Below are positions 1-64,000 of a stretch of DNA of 64,000 nt, one piece after another. The first letter of the stretch is position 1, and every line of letters begins with the position of its first letter. A model generated the notes under the pieces. The model had not been told where the DNA came from and did no database searches. It saw only the letters and a list, made by a program, of their open reading frames with translations. This DNA is from Ceratodon purpureus. Its lineage: Eukaryota > Streptophyta > Bryopsida > Pseudoditrichales > Ditrichaceae. The stretch covers positions 9,726,825 to 9,790,824 of the forward strand of contig CM026432.1 of assembly GCA_014871385.1 (NCBI GenBank), written 5' to 3'. The position numbers and the translations under genes were made by a program.

Positions 1-353
1 CATGATAAAAAATAAAAAAGCAGTGTTGTGTTGCAATCATTTCATCATAGCTGCAATCGTTCAATATTTCCTGTTGGTAGAGGAATCAGAAAGTAACTTA
101 GGCAATGATGAATTTAGATTCCAGGGTTTGGGTTAAAGGGGGTCGTTGTCGTCTTCGGCATTAGGTTTCTTGTTTTCTTCGTGTCTTCGTGTCCGCGTGA
201 GCGTTTCTGTGTTTCTTGAGCGTTCTGATTCTGCTTCAGTTTCGCGTTTGTAGTGTGTGCATTGTTTCTATCGTCTGCGTCTGCTGCGTTTCTAGTGTTT
301 GATCTATTTTCTGTGTCTTTGTGTCTTCGTGCGCATTTGATACGGTGTCGGGG

Positions 354-476
354 TTTAGAGTGTGTGTCTGCGCTCATGTGTTTAGAGTGTGTGTCTGCGC
401 TCATGTGTTTAGAGTGTGTGTCTGCGCTCATGTGTTTAGAGTGTGTGTCTGCGCTCATGTGTTTAGAGTGTGTGTC
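354..476. repeat. 27-bp tandem repeat, about 4.5 copies
   Basis: Four full copies and a partial fifth of a 27-base unit (tttagagtgtgtgtctgcgc plus 7 bases) lie head to tail and are essentially identical. There are no unique spacers, so this is a minisatellite and not a CRISPR array. The unit length is a multiple of three, so open frames run through it on both strands; these are repeat artefacts. It lies 1.2 kb upstream of the recombinase start codon. Confidence 0.95.
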
Positions 477-670
477 TTGGATAGTTTGGGGTTTTGTTGG
501 GATTCTGCTCAAGTTTTAGTGATTTTGGTCGGGGTTTGGGGATTGTGGTCAGGGTTTCTATTGCTACGTCGGGGTTTCAGTTGGGATAATGCTTGGGCTG
601 TAGATATTCTACTTCGGGTTTTGGTGATTGTGGTCGGTGTTTGAGGTTTGTGCTCGGGTTCTTGTGTGCG

Positions 671-1110
671 TCGTTGGTGTTTCATTTGCGAGGTTGGGGT
701 TTCAGTTCGGATACTGCTCCGGTTTTGGAGATTCTGCTCCGGGTTTCTTTGTGCGGCGATCTGATAGTGCTTGCGATGTTTTCTATCAATCGCATTTCCG
801 ATCTTCAGGTGCATTTCCGATCTTCATGTTTTATCTGCGATTGATTTGCTTGTTGATTGTAGTAACTTGATTTTCTTGTTTTTTTTAATTAGGAGATGGT
901 TGCGTACTCTCTACGCTGGTTTCTAATCTTTTGATTGAGTTTCTAACCTATCGTTGGTGTTTCTTTTGCAAGGTTGGGGTTTCAGTTGGGATACTGCTCG
1001 GGTTTTGGAGATTCTGCTCGGATTTCTGTGTGCGGAGATGTTGATAGCGCTTGCGAATGTTTCTGTTGATTCTTGGAGGGCGCTTGCGATGTTTCTTTCT
1101 ATCGATTGCA
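671..1110. repeat. imperfect ~140-bp direct repeat pair upstream of the recombinase gene
   Basis: The stretch from 671 to about 808 (starting tcgttggtgtttc) is repeated from 951 to about 1110 with scattered differences. Both copies share the core gttggggtttcagt, then a ctgctc...gttttggagattctgctc string, then a gcttgcgatgttt-like end. Shorter pieces of the same text occur at 565-620 and 1120-1260. The repeats may be promoter or leader modules, or subterminal repeats of a mobile element. Confidence 0.75.
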
Positions 1111-1271
1111 TCTGATTGCATTTGAGTATTCTGCTCGGATCTTGAGGATTCTGCTCCGGCGAGTCTTCTCTTAATTCTGCTCGAGTTCTAGTTTCTGTTC
1201 CGGCTTTTTAGCGGGGATCTTTAATGGCGGTTGGGATCGTGGTCTCTGTCGATTGCATCTCCGATCTTCAG

Positions 1272-1608
1272 GTATGTTTTGATTTATTTTTCTTTTTCGT
1301 TTCTTTTTCACGTTTGTTGTGGTTTCGAGTGTTAGTTCTTTGATTTGGTTGTTGCTTTTTTTAATGTATACTAACTTGTGTACTTCTTTTTGGTTTCATT
1401 AGTTAATTAGTTCTTATTGGTTGTTAGTTCTTTGATTTTGTTGTCTTGTTTGTTGTTTGTTAGATTCTGCTTTTCTTATACTTTGTGTACTTAGTGTTTG
1501 AATTTATTTTATTGTTTTAATTAATGCATCTGACTTTTAATTTTGTTTTGTTTTGCAGTGGTCTTGGAGCGAGAGATGTCTGAGTTTGAGTTTGTGTTTC
1601 TTGTTTGA
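1272..1608 (+). promoter_or_regulatory. candidate 5' UTR intron and short upstream ORF of the recombinase gene
   Basis: A good donor (cttcag/gtatgt) at about 1271 and a T-rich acceptor ending in ttttgcag at 1558 bound a plausible leader intron, with T-rich sequence between them. Just after it, ATG at 1576 opens a 10-codon upstream reading frame that stops at 1608, before the main ATG at 1646. If transcribed this way, the upstream frame could dampen translation. Both calls rest on signals alone. Confidence 0.4.
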
Positions 1609-1645
1609 TTGATTTTTTTTGTTTCTTTTTTTAAGTCGAGAGATC

Positions 1646-4600
1646 ATGTCTTCTGTAAGGGTTTCTAGTCGCGTCAACAAGGGGAAACGGGGAGTCATGG
1701 GTTCTAGTCGTGTGACAGCGATAGGTCTTGTTTCTGTTTCTGCGAGTGTGTCTCCAGTCCAGAAAAAGAAGAGAGGGAAACGATCTGAAAATTCTCGTCA
1801 CTCTGTTCAGTCTGTGCAGTTTCCTGTGGTTGCTGATGTTGTTACTCCGCCTTGTCATGCTTTACCGGAGTCTGAGTCTGTGCAGTTTCCTGTGGTTGTT
1901 GATGTTGTTACTCCGTCTCGTGATGCTTTACCGGAGTTTGAGTCTGTCAATGCTTTACCTGAGCCTTGTGTCGTAGAGTCTGAGGTTTTAGAGTCGGATA
2001 GTGTTCATGGACTTGATTTGTACAATCAAATGTTTGGGAATATGTGGACTCTTTTGCCACCTAGTCCGATGCATGAGGAGATAGACAATTTTCTTTGTAG
2101 TCCAGATGGGATTTCCAATCAGGTTGTACCTCCGAGTCTAGTTTCTGAGTCTGTTTCTGCGTCTGTTTCTCTGTCTGTGAGTGAGATTACCGAGACTAAT
2201 CCTGCTAATCCTGCTGAGACTAATACTAACGCTGTCGAGACTAGTACTAATGCTGTGCCCGAGACTAATCCTCCCGAGACTAATCCTACCGAGTCTAATC
2301 CTACCGAGTCTAATCCTACCGTGACTAATCCTACCGAGTCTAATCCTACCTACACTAATCCTCCTCTTGTTGATCTTGTTGATTCCGAGAGTGAGAGTTC
2401 TGGTTTCGAAGATCTTGACTCTGTTTCAGCTGATGTAAGTTTGTCCAGTCAGAGTCAGAGCCAGAGTCAGAGTCAGAGTCAGTCTCGATTTCTGTCACTT
2501 GATCCGTCCATGGTGCAACGGGTGAAGGAGTTGAGACGAGGTAATAGTTACAAGAATAATAACTGGGCTATTAATCGCCTGAATGCTTGGAGATCTGAGG
2601 TTGGGAAAGAATTGACCCCCATCGAACAGATGGAATATGGGGCTTTGGCCGATGTTTTATTGGAATTCTTTCTTTGCATTTGCAAAGACAATGGCCAGCG
2701 ATACCCTTCAGGTTCGATTAGAAACTTTCACAAGTCTTTTAATCGAATCCTAAGGAATGCACAGAAAGTGCGGATTGCTCAAACAAAGGTTAATGAAGAG
2801 CCATTCTGTATTGAAACTAATCCTTATTTCTTGGAGGTTAGTGCTGTTGTTGTGGCTTCGATGGAGAAGTCTCGTGACTCTGGTGTGAACAAAACGAGAA
2901 GAAAGCCTAAGTGTTTGACATTCGCTGAAGAGGCTTTACTTTTAAGTCACCAGTCTCAGTCTCTTGAGAACAATGTCGGAGTCTTGAAGAGGATTCTCTG
3001 GTTTAATACTTCTTATTTCCTCATTAGAGGGAATAAGGAGATGCATAGATTGAAGTTCAGAGACTTCACTCAAGGTGTGGACGATTTTGGGCGTAAGTTT
3101 GTTGAGTAAGTGTTCTGACTTTTTGCTTTCTTTAAATTTATTGCTTTCTTTAATTTCGTTGCTTTCTTTAATTTCATTGTTGCTTATTCTTTTTATTATT
3201 AATTAGTGATTTTATTATTCTAAAAATTTAGTTTTCTAATGTTTGATTTATTGTTTGATTTAGGTATAATGAGCGGACTTCTAAGTCCTACGGTATCAGT
3301 TTGAACCGGTGTCAGGATGAGGATTTCCGACCTCCAGTGCGGGTTTACCATCCTGATGTTGTGGAGGTTTTTAAAGTGTACAATATGCACTTGGTGGATG
3401 ACATGAAAAATGGCCATTTATTCCTATCGCCTATTCTGCCTCAGCCTAATAACAGTCAGATTTGGTACAAGAATTCCAATGTTGGTGAACAAAAGCTTGG
3501 AAAATGGTTAAAGCACATGGCTGCGGAGGCTAGGATTGAAGGGGACGTGACTAACAAAAGTGGGAGACGAATTGGAATTACCAGAATGGCCATGAAGGAT
3601 ACTCCTCGTGACGTGATGTGTCAAATCACAAGTCACAGAAGCGCTGCTTCTCTTGATAGGTAAGTCGTTTTTAATTTTTTAATTTTTATTTTCGTTTTTT
3701 TCAATTTTCAATTTGCTTTAGTTTATATTTTACTAATCAGTAAATCCATTGTGAGCAGTTGTTGAATATTGGATTGTTGTTGCTCTTAACTGTTAGATCA
3801 TGCAGCATGCTTAGGGATTGTTTTGGAGTATAATGAGTTGTTGTTTATGCAAGTTGCATCAAAGCCTTAACTGATTATCTATGTTGATTATGTGTTTGTC
3901 TCTATTGATTATCTGATTGTTTATTTTATTGATGCTTTGTATTGTGTTTATTTAGATATGATGATACTCTGTTATTAAAGCGGGAAGCTGCTATGAAAGC
4001 AATAGCGCCGCCAGCTGAAAAGGCCGATGGAGGTTACAGTCAGCTGAAAGAGCAAGTGTTTTCAGAACACTCTCAGCTGTTGTTGGAGGGAGCTCCAGTA
4101 TCGCAGGGAGTGTCTTTTGTTGATAAGCTTGCTCTTGTTGCTTATCAACCTGATTGTCCGTCGTCAATTTCTGAAGTTGATGATTTCGATTTTTGGAGGC
4201 CATATGTTTGTGGCTCAAATTCTGTTTTTCCTTTTATGAAGCCTTTAGCTTCAAATGTCAATATACCTCCATCTGATTGTGGTTTCAATCAGTACTTGAG
4301 TGCACCGAGTCCAGGTTCTAATCTTGAGATTTGAAGTGTTGGAACTGGTTTTTCATTTCGAAATTCTATTTGTCCTTCACTTGATTCTGCAAGTGGATCG
4401 TTTTCTAACTCTGATTCGTATACTGGGTCTCTCAGACCGTATACTGGAGCTTCCAGACCGGATTCTGGAATTCCCAGACCGTACACTGGATCTCCGAGAC
4501 CAAACGTCCAAACGCCCAGGCCATTTTCACAAAATCCGAGAGTATTTTCTCAGACTCCGAGGCCAATCTCTCATCATCCGAGGCCATACTCCAATATTCG

Positions 4601-5372
4601 GAGGCCATATTCTAATATGCCAAGGCCGTATGCTCATACTCCTACTAGGCCTTTTGTGCCGAGTCATAGTCCTGGTCGAGCATATTGTCACAGTGATAGT
4701 CTTGGTCAATCTGAGTCCCAATGTGACTATACACATGCACCTCGTTGTGTATCGGCTTGTGAAATCCACTGTCCAGGAAAGGCTTGTGCAAATGAGCAAA
4801 TGAGGCCTGTTCAAAGTTCTGTAGGCCCTCAAAGAATGGTGAGGCCTATCTATAAAGCTGTACCGAAGAAAGTTCCACCTCAGTTTGCTAAAACTCCATC
4901 TCACATTTTGAGAGATGTGGAGTTTATGCCTACTGGTTCTGATAGGCTGGGTGCTTCTAGAGAACATTCGTCAGATTCTCAAAATGTTTCTAGCTCTGAT
5001 CTATCTAGCGAGTACGCATATGATTCAGAGTTAGATAAATTGTTAACAGACTTTGACTTAGAATTGTTTGAGCGTGGGCAACTTGTTAACAGGAACACAG
5101 GTCAAAGTAACCGTAGGGAAGAGAAGAAGGAGTCGCAAGATTTGGATGCGGTGGTGCGGTCGTTTACTTCTGGAGGTGGAGCTGTTCCAGTTTCATCAGT
5201 GGAGCCCCCAGTTTCTCCGGAGCAGCCTGCGGTGTCAATGGAGCAGCGTGCGTTTAGTAGTGTTCCAGCTCCGTTTAGTGGTGTCACTCATTTCTTTCAG
5301 ATAAACAATGGCATGGAAGTAGACTATGAGAAGTTTATTAGAGGCCTATTGAATGCAAACAATCAAAGTTGA
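1646..5372 (+). CDS. Crypton/ZMYM2-QRICH1-type tyrosine recombinase, frame interrupted by one TGA
   Basis: Three exons fit: 1646-3105, 3264-3659, and 3956 to the TGA at 4332-4334 or, if that codon is ignored, to 5372. The start is the first ATG in frame. Residues 1-280 are low complexity: Ser/Val/Glu-rich, Thr-Asn-Pro-Glu-Ser repeats near 190-240, then a Ser-Gln run at 267-280. Residues about 283-620 resemble a tyrosine recombinase fold: a SAM-like DNA-binding part (NNNWAINRLNAWRSEVG), catalytic Arg461 in LIRGNKE, the box TNKSGRR (585-588, Lys where His is usual), SHRS with His611, and Tyr620 in RYDD. The next 124 residues end at TGA. The same frame then stays open for 345 codons with Pro-Arg-Pro repeats and an acidic tail. 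The family cuts and rejoins DNA through a Tyr nucleophile; animal ZMYM2 and QRICH1 derive from such Cryptons. This copy could be a mobile element, a domesticated gene or a fresh pseudogene. Confidence 0.8.
4332..4334 (+). other. in-frame TGA inside the recombinase reading frame
   Basis: The codon after Leu-Glu-Ile in exon 3 is TGA, followed by AGT. The frame continues without another stop for 345 codons to 5372, still with coding-like repeats. I found no splice pair that would remove the TGA cleanly. It may be a true C-terminus, a recent nonsense change, an assembly error, or a readthrough site; the following base A does not match the strong TGA-C readthrough context. Confidence 0.85.
4420..4660 (+). 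repeat. Pro-Arg-Pro (x-R-P-Y/F) coding repeats
   Basis: In the frame that continues past the TGA, about ten units of 8 residues recur, each carrying R-P followed by an aromatic or polar residue (for example SLRPYTGA, GIPRPYTG, QTPRPFSQ, HHPRPYSN, NMPRPYAH). Their codons differ between units, so the peptide motif has been kept despite base changes. This suggests that the region was translated. Confidence 0.7.
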
Positions 5373-5388
5373 TTCCTGACTGTGCTTT

Positions 5389-5429
5389 CCTCCTCATTGT
5401 AGAAAAAACAGAATAATTGCATGAGGAGG
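5389..5429. repeat. 9-bp inverted repeat 17 bases after the long-frame stop codon
   Basis: cctcctcat at 5389-5397 pairs perfectly with atgaggagg at 5421-5429 across a 23-base A-rich loop. It could form a hairpin in the 3' UTR or mark an element end. The spacing to the stop codon may be coincidental. Confidence 0.6.
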
Positions 5430-7538
5430 TTTTACTGCAAGTCACGGTAGATCTTATTATACTTTCCAAAAATAAAACGTAACAAGTTTACCGATTATAT
5501 CTATTGTTTATTCTGTTTATTGTGTGTATTCTGTTCATTGTTTCTTTTTGGTTTGATTTGTGTGTTTTGCTTGTTGCTGCTTTGATAAATTGGTGCTTGT
5601 TTTGTGTACTAACTTGGATGGTTTCAATCTTATGTGTTTGTTTTTCTTATGTGTTGAGATTGATTCAGGTGGTGTTGTGGGATTTTTTATGTGTTGGTTT
5701 GTGCATGTTTTAGATATAATGTTATGTATCGCACTTGGACAGTAGATTGAGAATAATGGTATGGGGTGATTCTGAGCATTCGAATTCTTGCATTTGGATG
5801 ACTGTTTGGAGTCAATTGTCGTCGAATTGTTTGTTAATTTGACGAATATGATGGATGTTTTTTCTCTTTTCATCTCTTTATTGCGTAGCTTTTCATTCAA
5901 AAGTGAAATGTAAAGCATGATTGTGGCTCCGGAAATTCCGCGGAGCAGCAGGTTACCGCTGGTATCCTTGCTGCTCTCAGCGAGTCAAAAAAAGCCACGT
6001 CGACGTTCTTGAGCCCCCAGTCGGTTACGGTGATGTTCAAATCATACATCATTCATCCCCAACTGACTTGGAGAACACACAATCATCAGGAGTCTGCCTG
6101 GGATTGTGTGCATCTATTCCCTCCATCGTTCATCGCTTCTCGAGAAGCTCCTACGATTCCTGCAACTTGCTGCTGCCAAGCGGACCTGGACTCAGTCTGG
6201 CGGAGCAATATATAACTTAATTCCACTTCCCCGACAACAGCACAGTGACACCACTCACTTAGTCGGCCTTCACCGTGTTAAGAGAGCGAGGGTTTCACCT
6301 GTTTCCGACGGCCTGTGAACCCTTCCAGGAGATGTGTGCAGCCCAATAGCAGCGGTGCATCAGATTGGTGTTTGAGGTGAGTGGTTTTCCTTCTTTGCCG
6401 ATCGCCGTAAACTCATTATAAGCTTTGAGAGCTAGTCGACTTGAAGTTTTCATTGTTTGATCTGTCTCACTCTAAGTTGGAAATCTTTCTTTTGTTTGTG
6501 TGTTGCGGAGGATTTGGGTTGGTGGCTTGATGTTAGCCGATGCTTCTGGTGGTCATCTTCTGGTCTTGCTTTTAGGTGATTGCCAGGGCCCGGTAGTCCT
6601 GTCTCCCTCTCGACCACTTCCACCTCTGTCGGTGGTTTGGCGCTCTCTGTCGGTGGTTTTCCACTCGACTCACGATTTCTGCAAACCCATAATTCTCGAG
6701 GGATTGAGGAAGTTCTGCAGACTAAGCGTGGAGAACCTCGCTACAACCTCTTGCTCCCAGTTTGCATTTTAAGTTACAGCGCTAACAAGACGGATTTTCT
6801 CCATCGGACCGCTAATTTGGGATTTGTTGCAAAATTGATTGGTGGGTGTTTTCCTAGATTCAGACCGTAAAGGTTTCTGAAATGATGTAAGTACAATGCC
6901 ACGTATTTCTTTTGAATGTATTCGGTCTTGACTGCGGTGAGCTTTCGTCCAAGGAACCCTCGAAACAGGTTAAAAGGGGGAGTGCTTGGATGTAGACCGG
7001 AGGTGCATTTTCTGTGGATTTCAGTGACACACTGATAAGTTGAGAGCAACAAATTTTAGCCACTCATGCTAATCATGTGGAATTGTTGGATCCCAGATCT
7101 CGGAGACAAGTTTACAGCCTAGCCCACTATCTCCTCATCAACTGATTGACTTCGCTCAAGACTATATTTTATTCTGGGAGGGGTATCACCTAGCATGATA
7201 TGAATTGCTCTAACTTGATCGCAATAAAAAGTTTATCGATCATATCTCTAAAGCGCTGTGGGAAGAATGGCCACCGGCAAATTGAGCAATTGGCCCGCAG
7301 GTTCAGGACGTCTACTAACATCACACGATTTATGTCGACTTACGAGGTGAAGGTGGTGCTGATTCTAAGTTCGTGATGTTCAAAGAGTTCAGGGGAAGTG
7401 AATCTCGTCTGTTTTGTGAGGAATGTTTACAACACATTAAGCAAGCATTGGTAGTGCAATTGTGCGACCAAAGTGGCTCTTCGTGTGACCATCTTTCACC
7501 CGGTCAATAGATGGTCGTGACCTGAAACTAGTGCTGCC
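5430..7538. other. spacer between recombinase gene and TNL-1
   Basis: From 5430 to 5915 the DNA is T-rich, resembles the recombinase introns, and includes an aataaaa string near 5469. From about 5920 the GC content rises; short frames here show no recognisable domain. A good splice donor (gtttgag/gtgagtgg) near 6377 follows a purine-rich leader-like stretch and may belong to a non-coding first exon of TNL-1. I see no convincing protein-coding gene. Confidence 0.45.
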
Positions 7539-10500
7539 ATGCACGATCAGTCTCTCAAACGTCACCGAGGCCAATGCTCTCCTTCATTTGCAGCCATGGA
7601 CGTGGATTACGACGTGTTCCTGAACCATCGTGGGCCTGATGTGAAAGCTGGCTTCATATCCCACTTGGACGAAGCACTTCGGACTGTGGGGTTGAATCCG
7701 TTTCTGGACAAGGCATCTTTGAGGAAGGGGCATCCTGCTTTCAGTTCCATATATGACGCTTTGGAAGTGGCGAAGATCCATGTTGCAGTTGTTTCGAAAG
7801 GATATGCAGAGTCGAAGTATTGCCTGACTGAACTGGTGGCCATGATGAGGAGCGGAAAACCTGTGATTCCTGTATTCTACGATGTGAAGCCTGTGGACTT
7901 GCGGTGGTTGGAGAATGGCCCATTTGCAAAAGCATTTGAGAAACATAAGTTGAAGAGAACACCAGAGCAAGTGGAGGAGTGGAGGGATGCGCTTCTCAAG
8001 TTGACGGAAATCACCGCGATTTGCTTTCGTCTCTCTGATTACAAGGGGTAAATTCTATCCTAGTTAATGCAAAACAAAGCTATCCAAGTTTAGTTGTGTT
8101 ATGCTTTCTTGAGCAAGTTAGGGTAGAAAGTGTTGAAGGTTTTATTTGGTAAGAGGACAATGTAAAGCCAGGGCTCTCTTGTTACTAGACATGTGTTTGC
8201 AGCATGTATGTGAAGAGTAAAGAAAGGGAGGGAAGCTTTTATGATAGAAGGAAGTTGTTAACGACCTATGTTGCTTTCTTTTGGTTAAGGGTTCTATCTA
8301 GGCACTTCTCATTTTGTTGTAACATTTTTCTAGTTTGGAAAGAAGATATATACTTGAAGGACTACAATATATGAAATTGTTGGAAGGTGACTCACTTGTT
8401 GTTTATTGTAGGAATGAAGCAAAACTAAAACAAGAAGTGGTTGATGTTGTATTGAGCTTCACATGTAGAGTTGAGGCAGTGCCAATTGAGCACCACGTGG
8501 TGGGAGTAGAAGAACAGATGAATGCATGCATCACGACGATCAAGGAGCTTATGTCTGGTCCTACAAGATTCTTGGGCCTCGTTGGTATGGGTGGAATTGG
8601 GAAAACCACTCTTGCTAAAGCAATTTACAACCATTTTGTTGGCTGCAAGAAGTTTCAAGCTATGAGTTTCTTGCAAGTGGATCACAATCCGCTTTCAAAC
8701 ATGGAGGAGGTTGGGTTAAGTTTGTTGAAGAGGTTGCAAAAACAACTACTCAAGGATATTTTCCATGTACCACACAAGAATCAAGGGAGCTATACACATT
8801 GGTTTAATAAGATATCATGTCAAGGGCCAATATTGGTTGTTTTGGATGATTTGTGCAGAAAGAGTGAGTTTGATCAAGTTATTCTTGACATGAGCCTTCT
8901 TGCTCCTGGGAGTTGCATTATTGTCACATCTCGTGATCGACACATATTGAATGAAATTGGTGGACAATGCAACTATTTCCTTCATGAAGTGAGACCATTG
9001 GGGAGTGATGATTCTCAAGAGCTGTTCAACTTGCATGCATTTGGGAATGGCAAAGTTCCTCCAAAGTTCAAGAATTTAGCCAATGATGTAAGCAAAGCTT
9101 GTGGGGGTTTGCCACTAGCATTGAAGGTGGCTGGTTCAAGTTTGAGTGACAAGAAATCGGATGAAGATTTGAAAGGCATATGGCTCGAGGCAGTAGATGC
9201 ATTGAAAGAGGATGCCAATGTCATGAATGTCTTGAGATGGAGCTACAATTGCTTATCAAAACATGAAAAGAAGATGTTTTTGGATATAGCATGCATATTT
9301 TGTGGATGGTGGAAAGACGAGGCCATGGAGATTTGGAAAAGTTGCAAAGAATCTTCATGTTGTGGTTATAAGACACTTCATACATCTTTGGGGAAGTTGA
9401 TTGACAAGTCATTGATTGTCATTGATTTGACCAAAGGAAAAGAACAAGGAGGTGTTTTAAGTATGCATGGCCTACTACAAGAATTGGGAAGGAATGTAGG
9501 AATTGATGATGGAAGTCATATATGGGTGGAGGGAGGCACATGTGGAGTGGAAGACATCAATCAAGTAAGTTTTATATTATGTAGAATTGATAAGTGGTAC
9601 GTATAAAGATACTATTTGAATTGGAAATGACAACATTTTGTAAAAGTGAAGTAAAACTTAGATATAGATCTTGATTCATGGAATGAGATTCATGATTAAA
9701 GCATAACATCTTGTAATCTATTATGTGATTTAGGTAGAGTTTTTACCTTTTTGCTTTTGAATCATTTAATTCAAGTTTCTTTATTAATGTGTTGATATTG
9801 ATGTGATATATTAGGGGCCAAAGAAAGTGAGGGCACTCAATTTTGCAAATGGAGGAGAGCATGAATTGGGGTTTGAATACTTCACAAAGTTGACCAATCT
9901 ACATTTCCTTATATTGGATGGTTGTTTTCTTACTGGTGACCCAACAATTATCTCCAAGAAACTACGATGCTTGCGGTGGAGGCATATGCCAATGATTCAA
10001 CGGCCTCCAATATTGAATCTTACCAACTTGATATCCTTGGACTTTTCTCATAGTACCAAGGCAGCTAGTTTATAGACAGAATCGAATCTTGCTCTAGAGG
10101 TATGTTGTGCTATTTATACTTTTGTTTCCAAATCGTTAAAGTTGCATGTGCTTTTGGTTATAAGGATTGTAATAATAAGAAGTACCTAAATAAATTGGTA
10201 AATTTAGTATTGTTTGATGTCTTGAATTTTGCAACGTTTGACATAAAGTGTAATACAAAAATTTTAACAAAGTTTTATCAAGAACAACAATAGACTTGGA
10301 ATATTATGAATACAATAAATCTTATAAAGCATTAATTCATTCAGAAATCATAATTAAGGTATTAGATTCAATATAAATGAAATTTTGAGAGGTATGTTAA
10401 ATACACTAATTTATTTTATAATATATATTCTTTGTTGACTTTTTATAATTTAAATATTCACAATTGAAGTTCAAATTGGATTCTACCACCGCAATCCATT

Positions 10501-11706
10501 TTTTGGATGCTTGCTTAGACATTTTGGGATTGAATTTTGATAAACCATACTTGTTATGCTTTCCAGGGTTGCCCAAACTTGCTCAATCTTAATATGTGGA
10601 ATTGCACGTCAATCATTACTCTCCCCGATTCCATAGGGCTATTATCTCGACTCCAGCTATTAGACTTTAAGGGATGTAGGAATCTGCAGAAGCTGCCAAG
10701 TACAATTGGACAACTCACACAGCTGGAAAAACTCCGTGTACAAGAGTGTGAAAGCCTAGAATCATTGCCAGATTCCATCCCTACCTTGCCTCGGTTGCAA
10801 CATCTTTTCATTGACACGTGCACATCCATGTCCAAGGTGCCAGAGACAATGGGGCTCATGACGGGCCTTACGAGGTTTAGTACAGACCTTGAGACTGAAT
10901 GGCACGCAGTCGCTGTTGGACAACAACACGGGCTCAAGGATCTCTTAGTAAGGAAGTGCAGTGACGAGGGAATCACATGGCTCGATAGAAACAGTTCACT
11001 TGCCCATCTCCACCACCTTTCCTACTTTTCCTTTCGTGACTGCCCGGCCATGAGCAAGCTCCCATACACCATCGGACTTCTCACGAATCTGGACTGGCTC
11101 TGTTTAAGGCGTTGTCAGAACTTGCGGGAGCTCCCCAACAGCATCGGACAACTCAAACTGCTCACGAAACTGGGCCTGACAAGATGCAGCAGTCTGGAGA
11201 CTCTGCCTGATTGTTTGGGTGCCCTCACGAGTTTGGAAGAGCTATGGATTGCGCAGTGCAGATCTCTCACCAAGCTCCCGGAGTCCATCGGCCACTTGTC
11301 GAGGCTTGAGACGTTGAGGATTGAGGGGTGCGGTGAGTTGCAGCCACTCCCGGAGTCCCTCAGGCAGCTGAGTGGGCTGATGTGGTTACAAATATTGGAT
11401 TGTGGCAGCCTGGAGGGTTTGGGTGTGCTCAGAGTGTTGCAAGGCCTTCGCATTTGGGGATGCACTTCCGTCATCAATCTTTCAGGATCATGTCTAATTG
11501 TTTTGGACAGAAAGCGTTGGGATCCTTCTTGGTACAGATACGACGACGGCAATCAATTTCTTTCCGTGCGCGGAGATTTGACGGAAATGCGAGTGGTGGA
11601 AGCAAATGATTGTGGGTCTCTACGCCTCGTGCAAGATGCTGAGAGTGGACGGTCAATTTTGCAACGAGTCCACAAGGTGGACTGTTGTCAGTTGATCACG
11701 TTGTAG
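7539..11706 (+). pseudogene. TIR-NBS-LRR immune receptor TNL-1, interrupted by a nonsense codon
   Basis: Exons: 7539-8047 (TIR), 8412-9564 (NB-ARC), 9815-10099, 10567-11706 (LRR), all with GT-AG ends. An intact frame would be 1028 residues. Met20 (7596), just before the TIR, is an alternative start. The TIR (about 20-165) has YDVFLNHRGPD and the likely catalytic Glu in SKYCLTEL. NB-ARC motifs follow: P-loop GMGGIGKTT (about 228-236), kinase-2 VVLDDL, RNBS-B IIVTSRDR, GLPLAL, and MFLDIAC. The MHD position reads MHG. The LRR exon has about a dozen LxxLxxLPxxIGxL repeats with Cys-rich spacing. TNLs are cytosolic or nuclear immune receptors whose TIR domain is an NAD-cleaving enzyme in plants. 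In exon 3 a TAG at 10073-10075 replaces the Trp codon kept in TNL-2, so translation should stop at 640 residues, without LRRs. The product could be a truncated TIR-NBS protein, or the gene may be dead. Confidence 0.85.
10073..10075 (+). other. premature TAG in TNL-1 exon 3
   Basis: TNL-1 reads agt-tta-TAG-aca-gaa-tcg where TNL-2 reads agt-ata-TGG-act-gaa-tca. The surrounding frame, exon length (285 bases in both) and splice sites are intact, so a single G-to-A change explains the stop. It falls 27 bases before the exon end. Confidence 0.85.
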
Positions 11707-60379: not shown

Positions 60380-63300
60380 CTACAACATAATCAACTTACA
60401 ACAGTCCAGCTTGTGGACTCGTTGTAATATTGACCGTCCACTCTTAGTATCTTGCACGAGGCGTAGAAACCCACAATCATTTGCTTCCACCACTCGCATT
60501 TCCGTCAAATTTCTGCGCACGAAACGCATTTGATTGCCGTCGTCGTAGTAGTACAGAGAAGGATCACAACGCTTCCTGTCCAGAACAGTTAGACATGATC
60601 CTGAAAGATTGGTGACGGAAGTGCATCCCCAAATGCGAAGGCCTGGCAACACTCTCAGCACACCCAAGCCCTCCAGGCTCCCACAATCCAATATTTGAAA
60701 CCTCATCAGCCCACTCAGCTGCCTGAGAGACTCCGGGAGTGGCTGCAACTCACCGCACCCCTCAATCCTCAACCACCGAAGCTTGGACAAGTGGCCGATG
60801 GACTCTGGGAGCTTGGTGAGGGATCTGCACTGCGCAATCCATAGCTCTTCCAAACTCGTGAGGGCACCCAAACAATCAGGCAGAGTCTCCAGACTGCTGC
60901 ATCTTGTCAGGCCCAGTTTCGTGAGCAGTTTGAGTTGTCCGATGCTGTTGGGGAGCTCCCGCAAGTTCTGACAACGCCTTAAACAGAGCCAGTCCAGATT
61001 CGTGAGAAGTCCGATGGTGTGAGGGAGCTTGCTCATGGCCGGGCACTCAATAAACAGAATTTTGGAAAGGTGGTGGAGATGGGCGAGCGAACTCTGTTCA
61101 TTGAGCCATCTGATTCCCTCGTCACTGCAGTGTACTATAGTGAGTTCCTTGAGCCCGTGGAGTTGTCCAACAGCGACTGCTTGCCATTCAGTCGCAAGGT
61201 CTGTAGCATATAAGGTAAGGCCCGTCATGAGCCCCATTGTTTCTGGCACCTTGGACATGGATGTGCACTCGCATATGATAAGCCGTTTCAACCGAGGCAG
61301 GGCACTGATGGAATCCGGCAATGATTCTAGGCTTCTACATTTTTGTAGATATAGAAATTGCAATTGTGTGAGTTGTCCAATTGTACTCGGTAGCCTCTGC
61401 AAATTTCGACATCTACTTAAGTCCAATACTTGGAGTCGAGATAATTGCCCTATGGAATCTGGGAGAGTAATGATTGATGTGCAATTTGTCATGTTAAGAT
61501 TGAGCAAGTTTGGACAACCCTGAAAAACACAACAAGTATTATGTATCAAAATTCAATCTCAAAATGATAAAGCATCCAAACAATGGATTGCTATTGTAGA
61601 TTGCAATTAGAACTTCAATTGTAAGCATTTTGATTCATGAAGTCAACAAAGGATATAAATTCTAAAATACTTACTTTCTTTTCACTTTTTATGTATTTCA
61701 ATTGCAATGTAAGATTAGCATAATAAAAGTTATGGTTGAAGCATTAAAGGTTTATGATTCAGAAACTAATAAACTCAAATCATTATACATCTTAAGGGGA
61801 AAATTGAAGTATCACAGTGCAAGTCTGTTCAATTACAAATGCAATTGTCATATATGAAAATATACTTATCTTAATTTAATTCTTATTTAAGATATATATT
61901 TCCAAAAAAAATCTCTATGCTTTACATGTAAATAATTCAATCAAACTCCAATTCAAACTAGAATGTAGAATAATGTACCTCTGTTGCTGAATTTGATTCA
62001 GTCCATATACTAGCAAGGCCAGGGCTATTGGAAAAATCCAATGCTACCAAGTTCAAAAAATTCCACATTCGAGGTACATGTTTCAATGGCATGTTCCTCC
62101 ATTGCAACCACCGTAACTCTTTTGAAACCATATCGAAGTTCCCACTTACATCACATCCATCCAATATGAGATAATGTAAGTTGGTCATCTTTGCAAAGCT
62201 CTCACATTCATATTTGCGTTTTCGACTCTTTGCGAGATTCAGCGCCCTTACTTTGTTGTACCCCTGAATAATCAAAACAATAAAAACATCTTTCTTAACT
62301 TTTGCAGATGCACCATTTATGAATTCTACAAGATTCTTAATAATTAATATCATTTGCATATAACAAAATTTTTAAAAATGTACAAAAACATTGTGGATAG
62401 CAAGTAAAAACTTACATCATAGTTCTCTTCAACAACTTTGGCAGCTCTGTTCTCCCACAAATGGCTTCCACTCGATGTTCCAATACTTTGGCCCAATTCT
62501 TGTAGTAGACCATGCATCACCAACTCTTCTTGTCCATAAGAGTTCCTAAGTGCAACTAATGACTTATCAATGAGATTTCTCAAAGTCATGTGAGGGGTCC
62601 CATATCCGAAACATGATGAACATCCCTTACAACTTTTCCAAATCTCTACAACCTCTTGCTTTTCGAGGTTGCAAAATACACAGGCAATATCCACAAACAT
62701 CATCTTCTCTTCAACAGAAAGACAATCATAACTCCATCTTAAAGTGGTTATCACCTTCACCTCTCCCTTTAAAGCATTCACCGCCTCAGGCCAAATGCAT
62801 TCCAAATCTTCATCGCTTTTCTTATCCATCAAGCTAGAGCCCACCACTTTCAATGCTAATGGCAAACCACCACATGCTTTGCTCACATCATTGGCTACAT
62901 CCTTGAATTTCGGAAGAGCTTCTTCACTACGAAATGCATACAAGTTGAAAAGCTTTGTAGCGTCGTTAGTCTCCAAGGGTGTCACTTCATGAAGAGAGAA
63001 ATTCTGAAACTCTCCACTAATAACCTTCAATACATGGCGATCCCGAGATGTAACAATGATGCAACTCCCTTGTCCAAGAAGACCAACATCTAAGATGATC
63101 TCATCAAATTGGCTCCTCTCATGGATGTCATCCAACACAATCAATGTTGAACCTTTGTGTGATAACTTGTGAAACCAATAACTATAACTGTGATCATTGC
63201 AATTCTGAACATGCAAAAGATCCCAAAGTAGTTGATTCTGCAATTTCTCCACCATACCTAAAGAACTCAAAGAACTCAAAGTTGTATTATGATCAACCGT

Positions 63301-63562
63301 CAAAAAACTCATGGCTTGAAACTTCTTGTGATTTACAAAATGGTTGTATATCAACTTGGCAAGAGAGGTTTTACCGACTCCACCCATCCCCACAAGGCCC
63401 AATAAACCTGTGGTATTGGTTATCATCTCCAACTTCTTGACGCATGCATGAACATGCTCTTCTACACCCACCATGCAACGATCAACTTGCAATGCCTCAT
63501 ATGAAGGTGTCAACTTGCTCAATATGGCACACACCACTTCCCGTTTCAATTCTACTTCGTCA
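60380..63562 (-). CDS. TIR-NBS-LRR-type receptor TNL-2, 5' part outside the window
   Basis: Exons on the minus strand: 63562-62416 (NB-ARC), 62263-61979, 61519-60380 (LRR). They join in phase and contain no internal stop (856 residues visible). Exons 3 and 4 have exactly the same lengths as in TNL-1 (285 and 1140). Motifs: P-loop GMGGVGKTSLAK, kinase-2 LIVLDDI, IIVTSRDRHVL, CGGLPLALKV, MFVDIACVFC, and MHGLLQELG (MHG instead of MHD). The LRR exon again has about a dozen LPxxIG-type repeats. The acceptor at 63563-63565 (ctcag) gives the same phase as TNL-1 exon 2. No TIR-coding exon occurs in the remaining 438 bases, so it lies beyond 64000 or is missing. It should act as an NTP-binding immune receptor if complete. 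Confidence 0.85.
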
Positions 63563-64000
63563 CTGAGCTCACAAAATCAGTCATTAGTACTTCATGAGTT
63601 TCATTAATACTGATTCCAACATTCAAACTTAATTAAAATGGACTGAAAATTGGATGAGGCATGCCCTGAAAGAATCGATACAAGTGATAATTTAACTCTT
63701 AATCATGTGACCGGTGTATCATGACACTCCTTACTCTACACTCCTGTATAGTACGATTTGCATGCCTGATAACAAGAATAAACTTTGGGTTTGACATGAC
63801 TCTCTTCCCAAAGAAAAACCCTCTAGCTCTGCATGCCCATGCCTCGACAACAAAAGTACAAGACTGCTGTAACGATAACTCAATAAGAAACTCAACCATA
63901 GCTAGTGATGCCAACAAAGTGGATTGCAGTTCAATCAGGTCAAGTGCAATCCCATCACGAAACAAACTTGCATTCCGAGGGGTACAAACATATCAATTAA
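63563..64000 (-). other. probable first intron of TNL-2
   Basis: By analogy with TNL-1, whose first intron is 364 bases, this stretch should be intron 1. The 88-codon minus frame at 63699-63965 does not resemble a TIR domain. No other feature is seen. Confidence 0.5.

Follow-up and report, generated by a model that had tools for sequence, protein, structure and literature searches.

The recombinase gene and its surroundings

The window (the whole stretch of 64,000 nucleotides analysed here, C12:9726825-9790824 of the 362.5-Mb genome of the moss Ceratodon purpureus) carries at positions 109-6028 what is very probably the remnant of a Crypton-like transposon, which lies, like all of its features described below, on the forward strand, with its left terminus missing and its right terminus intact. 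The original prediction had placed a tyrosine recombinase gene at 1646-5372; this span does hold the gene, but the element around it is bigger. On the left, alignment with the copies C5 and C7 starts at position 109, and a search with the left end of copy C8 gave no match anywhere on C12; on the right, the alignments of C8, C6a, C5, C6b and the window all end at 6028, with unrelated sequence beyond. The repeat-rich 5' leader (109-1645) is 90% identical to copy C5 over positions 109-358 and contains, by eye, a GT..AG intron-like stretch at about 1271-1558; a 27-bp tandem repeat occupies 353-477. Near the right end, a subterminal inverted repeat (AGCAGGTTACC / GGTATCCTTGCT, 5947-5972) precedes the right terminus CCCCCAGTCGGTTAC (6014-6028). 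The predicted setting in a plant genome is confirmed by the TIR, NB-ARC and LRR genes that adjoin the element. Immediately to its right lies a gene of the TIR-NB-ARC-LRR disease-resistance type (7563-11706), an inverted relative of which, with stretches of 86% and 72% identity, is found at the other end of the window (60380-63576).

Translation of the joined exons bore out the proposed model of three exons separated by GT..AG introns and connected in frame. Exon 1 (1646-3105) encodes a low-complexity N-terminal part and the first half of the recombinase core, including R461 (codon 3026-3028); exon 2 (3264-3659) encodes a catalytic part with K585 (3556-3558), R588 (3565-3567) and H611 (3634-3636); and exon 3 (3956-5372) carries the catalytic Y620 (3957-3959), an in-frame TGA (4332-4334) and then a conserved C-terminal part with a C-x3-C-x2-H-C motif. 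A break homologous to intron 1 (3106-3263) is present in the loci L038, L039 and L074, and intron 2 (3660-3955) is absent from L038, L039, L042, L043 and L074, where the sequence SLDRYDD/SLDKYDE is contiguous. R461, R588, H611 and Y620 stand in the joined protein at the residue numbers predicted for them, but the supposed HxxR-type box at 585-588 actually reads K-S-G-R, i.e., KxxR with a lysine at residue 585. Among 11 aligned cores (the window included, some of them nearly identical to one another, and C5 carrying stops), R461 is conserved in 10, and K585, R588, H611 and Y620 are conserved in all 11; thus, the lysine is a trait of the family and not a product of decay. The core has been under purifying selection, with dN/dS values of 0.069 (window vs. 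C6a) and 0.086 (window vs. C5), followed by 0.148 (C6a-C5), 0.228 (window-C8, dS 0.04) and 0.36-0.44 in three close pairs of other families, synonymous sites being saturated in three pairs.

The protein holds together across the exons as far as its frame is concerned, but it is interrupted at codon 745 by the TGA, which the original prediction did not mention; downstream of this stop, 345 further codons of the frame are open as far as position 5372. The C-terminal motif beyond the TGA is also found in L041 and L042, and the long frame was therefore once translated as one protein. At the TGA site, three of the four compared copies have a sense triplet and C6b did not align there; exon 3 is broken by other changes in C6a and C5 and is open to its end in C8. 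Neither readthrough nor an intron spanning the TGA needs to be invoked, since the aligned copies have a sense triplet at this point. With its left end missing and a TGA in frame, the window copy is not expected to be mobilized any longer by the protein it encodes and is probably immobile by its own means.

Profile searches support the assignment of the gene to the tyrosine recombinases. The protein up to the TGA matches PF12012 (DUF3504) with 33.3 bits against a cut-off of 29.7 (E 6e-8), so that a tyrosine recombinase profile is passed at its family cut-off, as the original prediction had anticipated; the same cut-off is exceeded by copy C6a (34.9 bits) and family B (33.8 bits) and is not reached by the relatives L039 and L074. 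Exons 1 and 2 each score about 16 bits when taken singly, too low for the window gene to be picked up by a six-frame PF12012 search of its own genome. This search returned two matches, both above the cut-off and both away from the window gene, and the corresponding search of 14 control genomes returned none. The two regions concerned (C6:84561536-84561748 and C9:6561781-6561993) may represent either elements that have diverged further or genes that have been domesticated. Of the phage-integrase profiles that the original prediction had named for comparison, PF00589 (Phage_integrase) aligns with the C-terminal catalytic part up to the Tyr, but always below its cut-off of 27.1 bits (E 0.055 for the window, 1.3e-4 for L039 and 5.7e-5 for C6a). 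The catalytic part also matches the integrase profile phrog_216 (E 0.0054), and L074 has a sub-threshold match to the QRICH1 domain PF25561 (E 0.0079), the sole hint bearing on the putative SAM-like N-terminal half of the original prediction. An NCBIfam search of the protein gave no family, a PDB sequence search gave a chance-level match only (E 0.52), and no recombinase relatives were found in the viral contig and genome contig collections scanned.

Pfam matches to reverse transcriptase, RNase H or DDE transposase were found neither in the exon pieces nor in 10 further ORFs (86-167 aa) in or across the element. The first two of these bear on the idea that the gene belongs to a DIRS/Ngaro-type retrotransposon, or to a larger YR element whose other genes have been lost; DIRS elements, too, rely on a tyrosine recombinase, and integration via circles is assumed for them (PMC4438587). 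We consider such an origin very improbable, because no reverse transcriptase or RNase H has been detected in the ORFs scanned, because the two ends of the complete copy C8 lie a mere 6.0 kb or so apart, an interval taken up by the recombinase gene with its leader, and because the matched profile is DUF3504, which the DIRS and Ngaro recombinases, as described in PMC3212892, do not match.

Copies, termini and insertion sites

A search of the same genome for copies and shared ends, as suggested by the original prediction, was productive on both counts, with exact ends common to related copies. With 1,161 bp as the DNA query, seven matches were obtained, the window itself among them (98% for C8, 82% for C6, 80% for C5, others partial), and with the 354-aa core as the protein query at least 125 matches at 22-100% identity among 115 of 308 candidates scored, which merge by distance into at least 71 to 73 loci on 14 contigs. 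At least 18-19 of these loci are on C6, which accounts for 110.5 of the 362.5 Mb of the genome and thus shows no excess. In a second recombinase family, L074 (on C4) and L075 (on C2) share 99.6% identity across 3,885 bp, which points to recent movement; no ends of the L074/L075/L076 family were found within 4-kb stretches. The third member, L076 (on C10), is 94-96% identical to the other two, and the family looks recently mobile. Non-autonomous copies also occur: four short ones, of 271-303 bp, possess both ends but carry no gene.

The left terminus GTATTAG-GTAACCGG is present in nearly all of the 25 left ends inspected, with small variants in C6a, L013, L044 and L048, and the flanks differ. 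These ends come from 27 loci obtained with the C8 left end (34 matches, seven of them the other strand of the palindrome described below), two of which were dropped, C7:14393951 as a partial match and C2:18930054 (L062) for want of GTATTAG; the latter is a short copy in which the palindrome end is present. Related copies end on the right in ...GGTTAC, and a search with the right 234 bp gave 20 matches, all 20 reaching query position 233 or 234. The 20 right ends inspected comprise 19 of these matches and L068, the end at C4:21922396 having been left out because it is degenerate and followed by G. The inverse of the right end, GTAACCGACTGGGGG, stands near the left end of complete copies, which have 15-bp inverted repeats near both ends.

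A palindrome of about 90-92 bp occupies 13 of the 15 left ends examined (C7 and C5 are without it), with pairing at 29-41 of 44-46 positions by a rigid mirror count, as against at most 0.49 in shuffled sequences of the three copies tested. The fold of the C8 palindrome has a z of -15.2, and between C8 and family L084 both palindrome arms differ in matching ways. At the left end of L012 (on C7), GTATTAG is directly joined to GTAACCGACTGGGGG and the palindrome is absent. Junction-like sites of the form GGTTAC-GAACTAG-GTAACC or GGTTAC-GGACTAG-GTAACC occur at C1:26843225, C6:32095075, C7:9995638, C2:9516533 and C9:5700349, one such site lying 1.7 kb downstream of the L038 recombinase gene; they may mark termini or tandem junctions belonging to other families.

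Joining the flanks of 11 insertions and searching the genome with them yielded, among the 40 of 170 candidates scored, three empty sites for two of the insertions. The flanks abut exactly in L100, the empty site of the short copy at C4:7462716, and in L101, one of two empty sites of the family-B copy on C2; the other, L102, has a 1-nt gap at the junction plus other differences. For the C5 insertion the two flanks occur close together but in swapped order, hence without an empty site. Neither duplication nor loss of target sequence was seen in the three empty sites of the two elements (L102 with its 1-nt junction gap), as is expected of tyrosine recombinases and not of DDE transposases. A DDE cut-and-paste transposon is rejected, as these sites show no target-site duplication, and the scanned ORFs are without a DDE match; the moss transposon Lanisha, EnSpm-like in the account given by PMC12730594, was also considered and rejected, as the marks of the DDE type are missing here.

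The insertions favour a particular target. In the left flanks, G at -5 (17/25), T at -3 (17/25), A at -2 (18/25) and C at -1 (16/25) are preferred (p 2e-6 to 2e-5 each), and the right flanks have a purine at +1 in 20/20 cases (p 2e-6) and never a C at +2. On average, 2.72 of the four specified bases of GNTAC are matched in the left flanks vs. 0.68-1.32 at 16 control offsets, with all four present in 5/25, so that the direct repeat is a degenerate one only. The preferred target is thus close to GNTAC^R, as is the junction of the element itself, and since the GNTAC of the left flank corresponds to the GTTAC of the right end, the element sits between two similar short sequences.

Nature of the element and a proposed mechanism

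Overall, the dozens of loci with exact common ends and unrelated flanks, the empty sites for two elements and the recent copies support the first of two options offered by the original prediction, a Crypton-like family of mobile elements. We are highly confident that the window contains a defunct Crypton-like DNA transposon copy, the single gene of which encodes a DUF3504-type tyrosine recombinase. The proposed link to Cryptons is drawn from the matches to the DUF3504 and integrase profiles; as the element departs from Cryptons in two defining features (the His of the tetrad and the lack of terminal inverted repeats), it is filed as Crypton-like.

The second option, a domesticated DNA-binding gene, is not supported for this locus. 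A non-mobile host DUF3504 gene, comparable to the animal ZMYM2 or KIAA1958, could account for the low dN/dS of the core, for the introns and the long low-complexity flanks and for the absence of a left terminus from the window copy, yet it is exceedingly improbable here. Such a gene should be single-copy with degenerate catalytic sites, whereas at least 71-73 related loci exist, with near-identical copies at other loci, exact common ends, unrelated flanks and empty sites; the gene in the window is truncated and has a TGA in frame; and the catalytic Tyr and second Arg are kept in 11/11 cores, both having been lost in all animal DUF3504 genes covered in PMC3212892.

For the Crypton-like transposon, the termini suggest how movement may have proceeded. 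The recombinase would cut at both ends and join them into a circle, the junction of which would read ...GGTTAC-GTATTAG-GTAACC..., a site made up of inverted repeats on either side of a 7-bp spacer; this circle site would then be exchanged, presumably by strand exchange, with a GNTAC^R sequence of the chromosome. The large left palindrome, together with the GGTTACC repeats of the two ends, would serve the recombinase for binding. Long palindromic DNA sites are used by relatives of the tyrosine recombinases in integron attC sites and in the sites of phage telomere resolvases, to which the moss palindrome is likened here by description. A more far-reaching reading by analogy, which we regard as quite unlikely, would set these elements apart as a plant lineage of their own among the tyrosine-recombinase transposons, marked by a lysine box in the active site; their conserved left palindrome of about 92 bp would be an attachment site, maybe recombined as a folded hairpin like integron attC, with the consequence that a target need have no more than about GNTAC^R in common with the element. 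With ends, target preference and empty sites all readable, the site model of a eukaryotic YR transposon is directly testable, and this in a land plant.

Relation to Cryptons and other tyrosine recombinase systems

Domesticated DUF3504 genes (ZMYM2/3/4, QRICH1, KIAA1958, KCTD1, WOC) share the DUF3504 profile with the moss genes; unlike the former, which lost the Tyr and the second Arg according to the description in PMC3212892, the latter keep both residues, are multicopy and have mobile ends. The DIRS/Ngaro elements, together with the plant ALOG domains reported as derived from them in PMC3537659, are alike in belonging to the tyrosine recombinase superfamily and in providing a recombinase-derived domain in plants, whereas the moss element is without a reverse transcriptase match, corresponds to a different profile and keeps the whole core.

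Cryptons have been described from fungi, oomycetes, a diatom and animals and divided into the groups CryptonA, F, I and S, with a catalytic tetrad R-H-R-Y, in those parts of the work of Kojima and Jurka (2011, PMC3212892) that bear on this comparison. The same source characterizes them as lacking terminal inverted repeats, as having boundaries that are hard to define and as lying between short direct repeats of 4-6 bp at their termini, and it gives inverted arms around a 6-8 bp spacer as the usual layout of a YR site, to which the joined moss ends come near. In PMC4438587, Crypton is tabulated in all groups, land plants included, without detail in that table; no paper describing moss Cryptons was found in the literature searched, a body outside of which most subscription journals and the Repbase reports fall.

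The moss elements are unlike these Cryptons in having Lys for the first catalytic His (11/11 cores) with R, R and Y in agreement, in having 15-bp inverted repeats near their ends and a left palindrome of about 92 bp, and in residing in a land plant; this group does not figure in the descriptions of PMC3212892 considered here. That the moss elements form a superfamily of their own among the tyrosine-recombinase transposons, beside the Cryptons as a sister group and not within them, is an unlikely though not negligible alternative: the replacement of HxxR by KxxR in every aligned copy speaks for it, as do the inverted-repeat ends and large left palindrome, which the account in PMC3212892 does not describe for Cryptons; against it stand the DUF3504 profile, which was built from Crypton-derived genes and is passed by the window protein, C6a and family B, and the presence at the ends of a short and degenerate direct repeat, the pattern published for Cryptons. 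The Crypton-like reading is in keeping with the remaining features that the moss elements share with Cryptons, i.e., a tyrosine recombinase gene as the only gene found, similarity to DUF3504, insertion without target-site duplication, a short degenerate terminal direct repeat and the occurrence of non-autonomous derivatives, which the relevant passages of PMC3212892 report for CryptonI and CryptonA.
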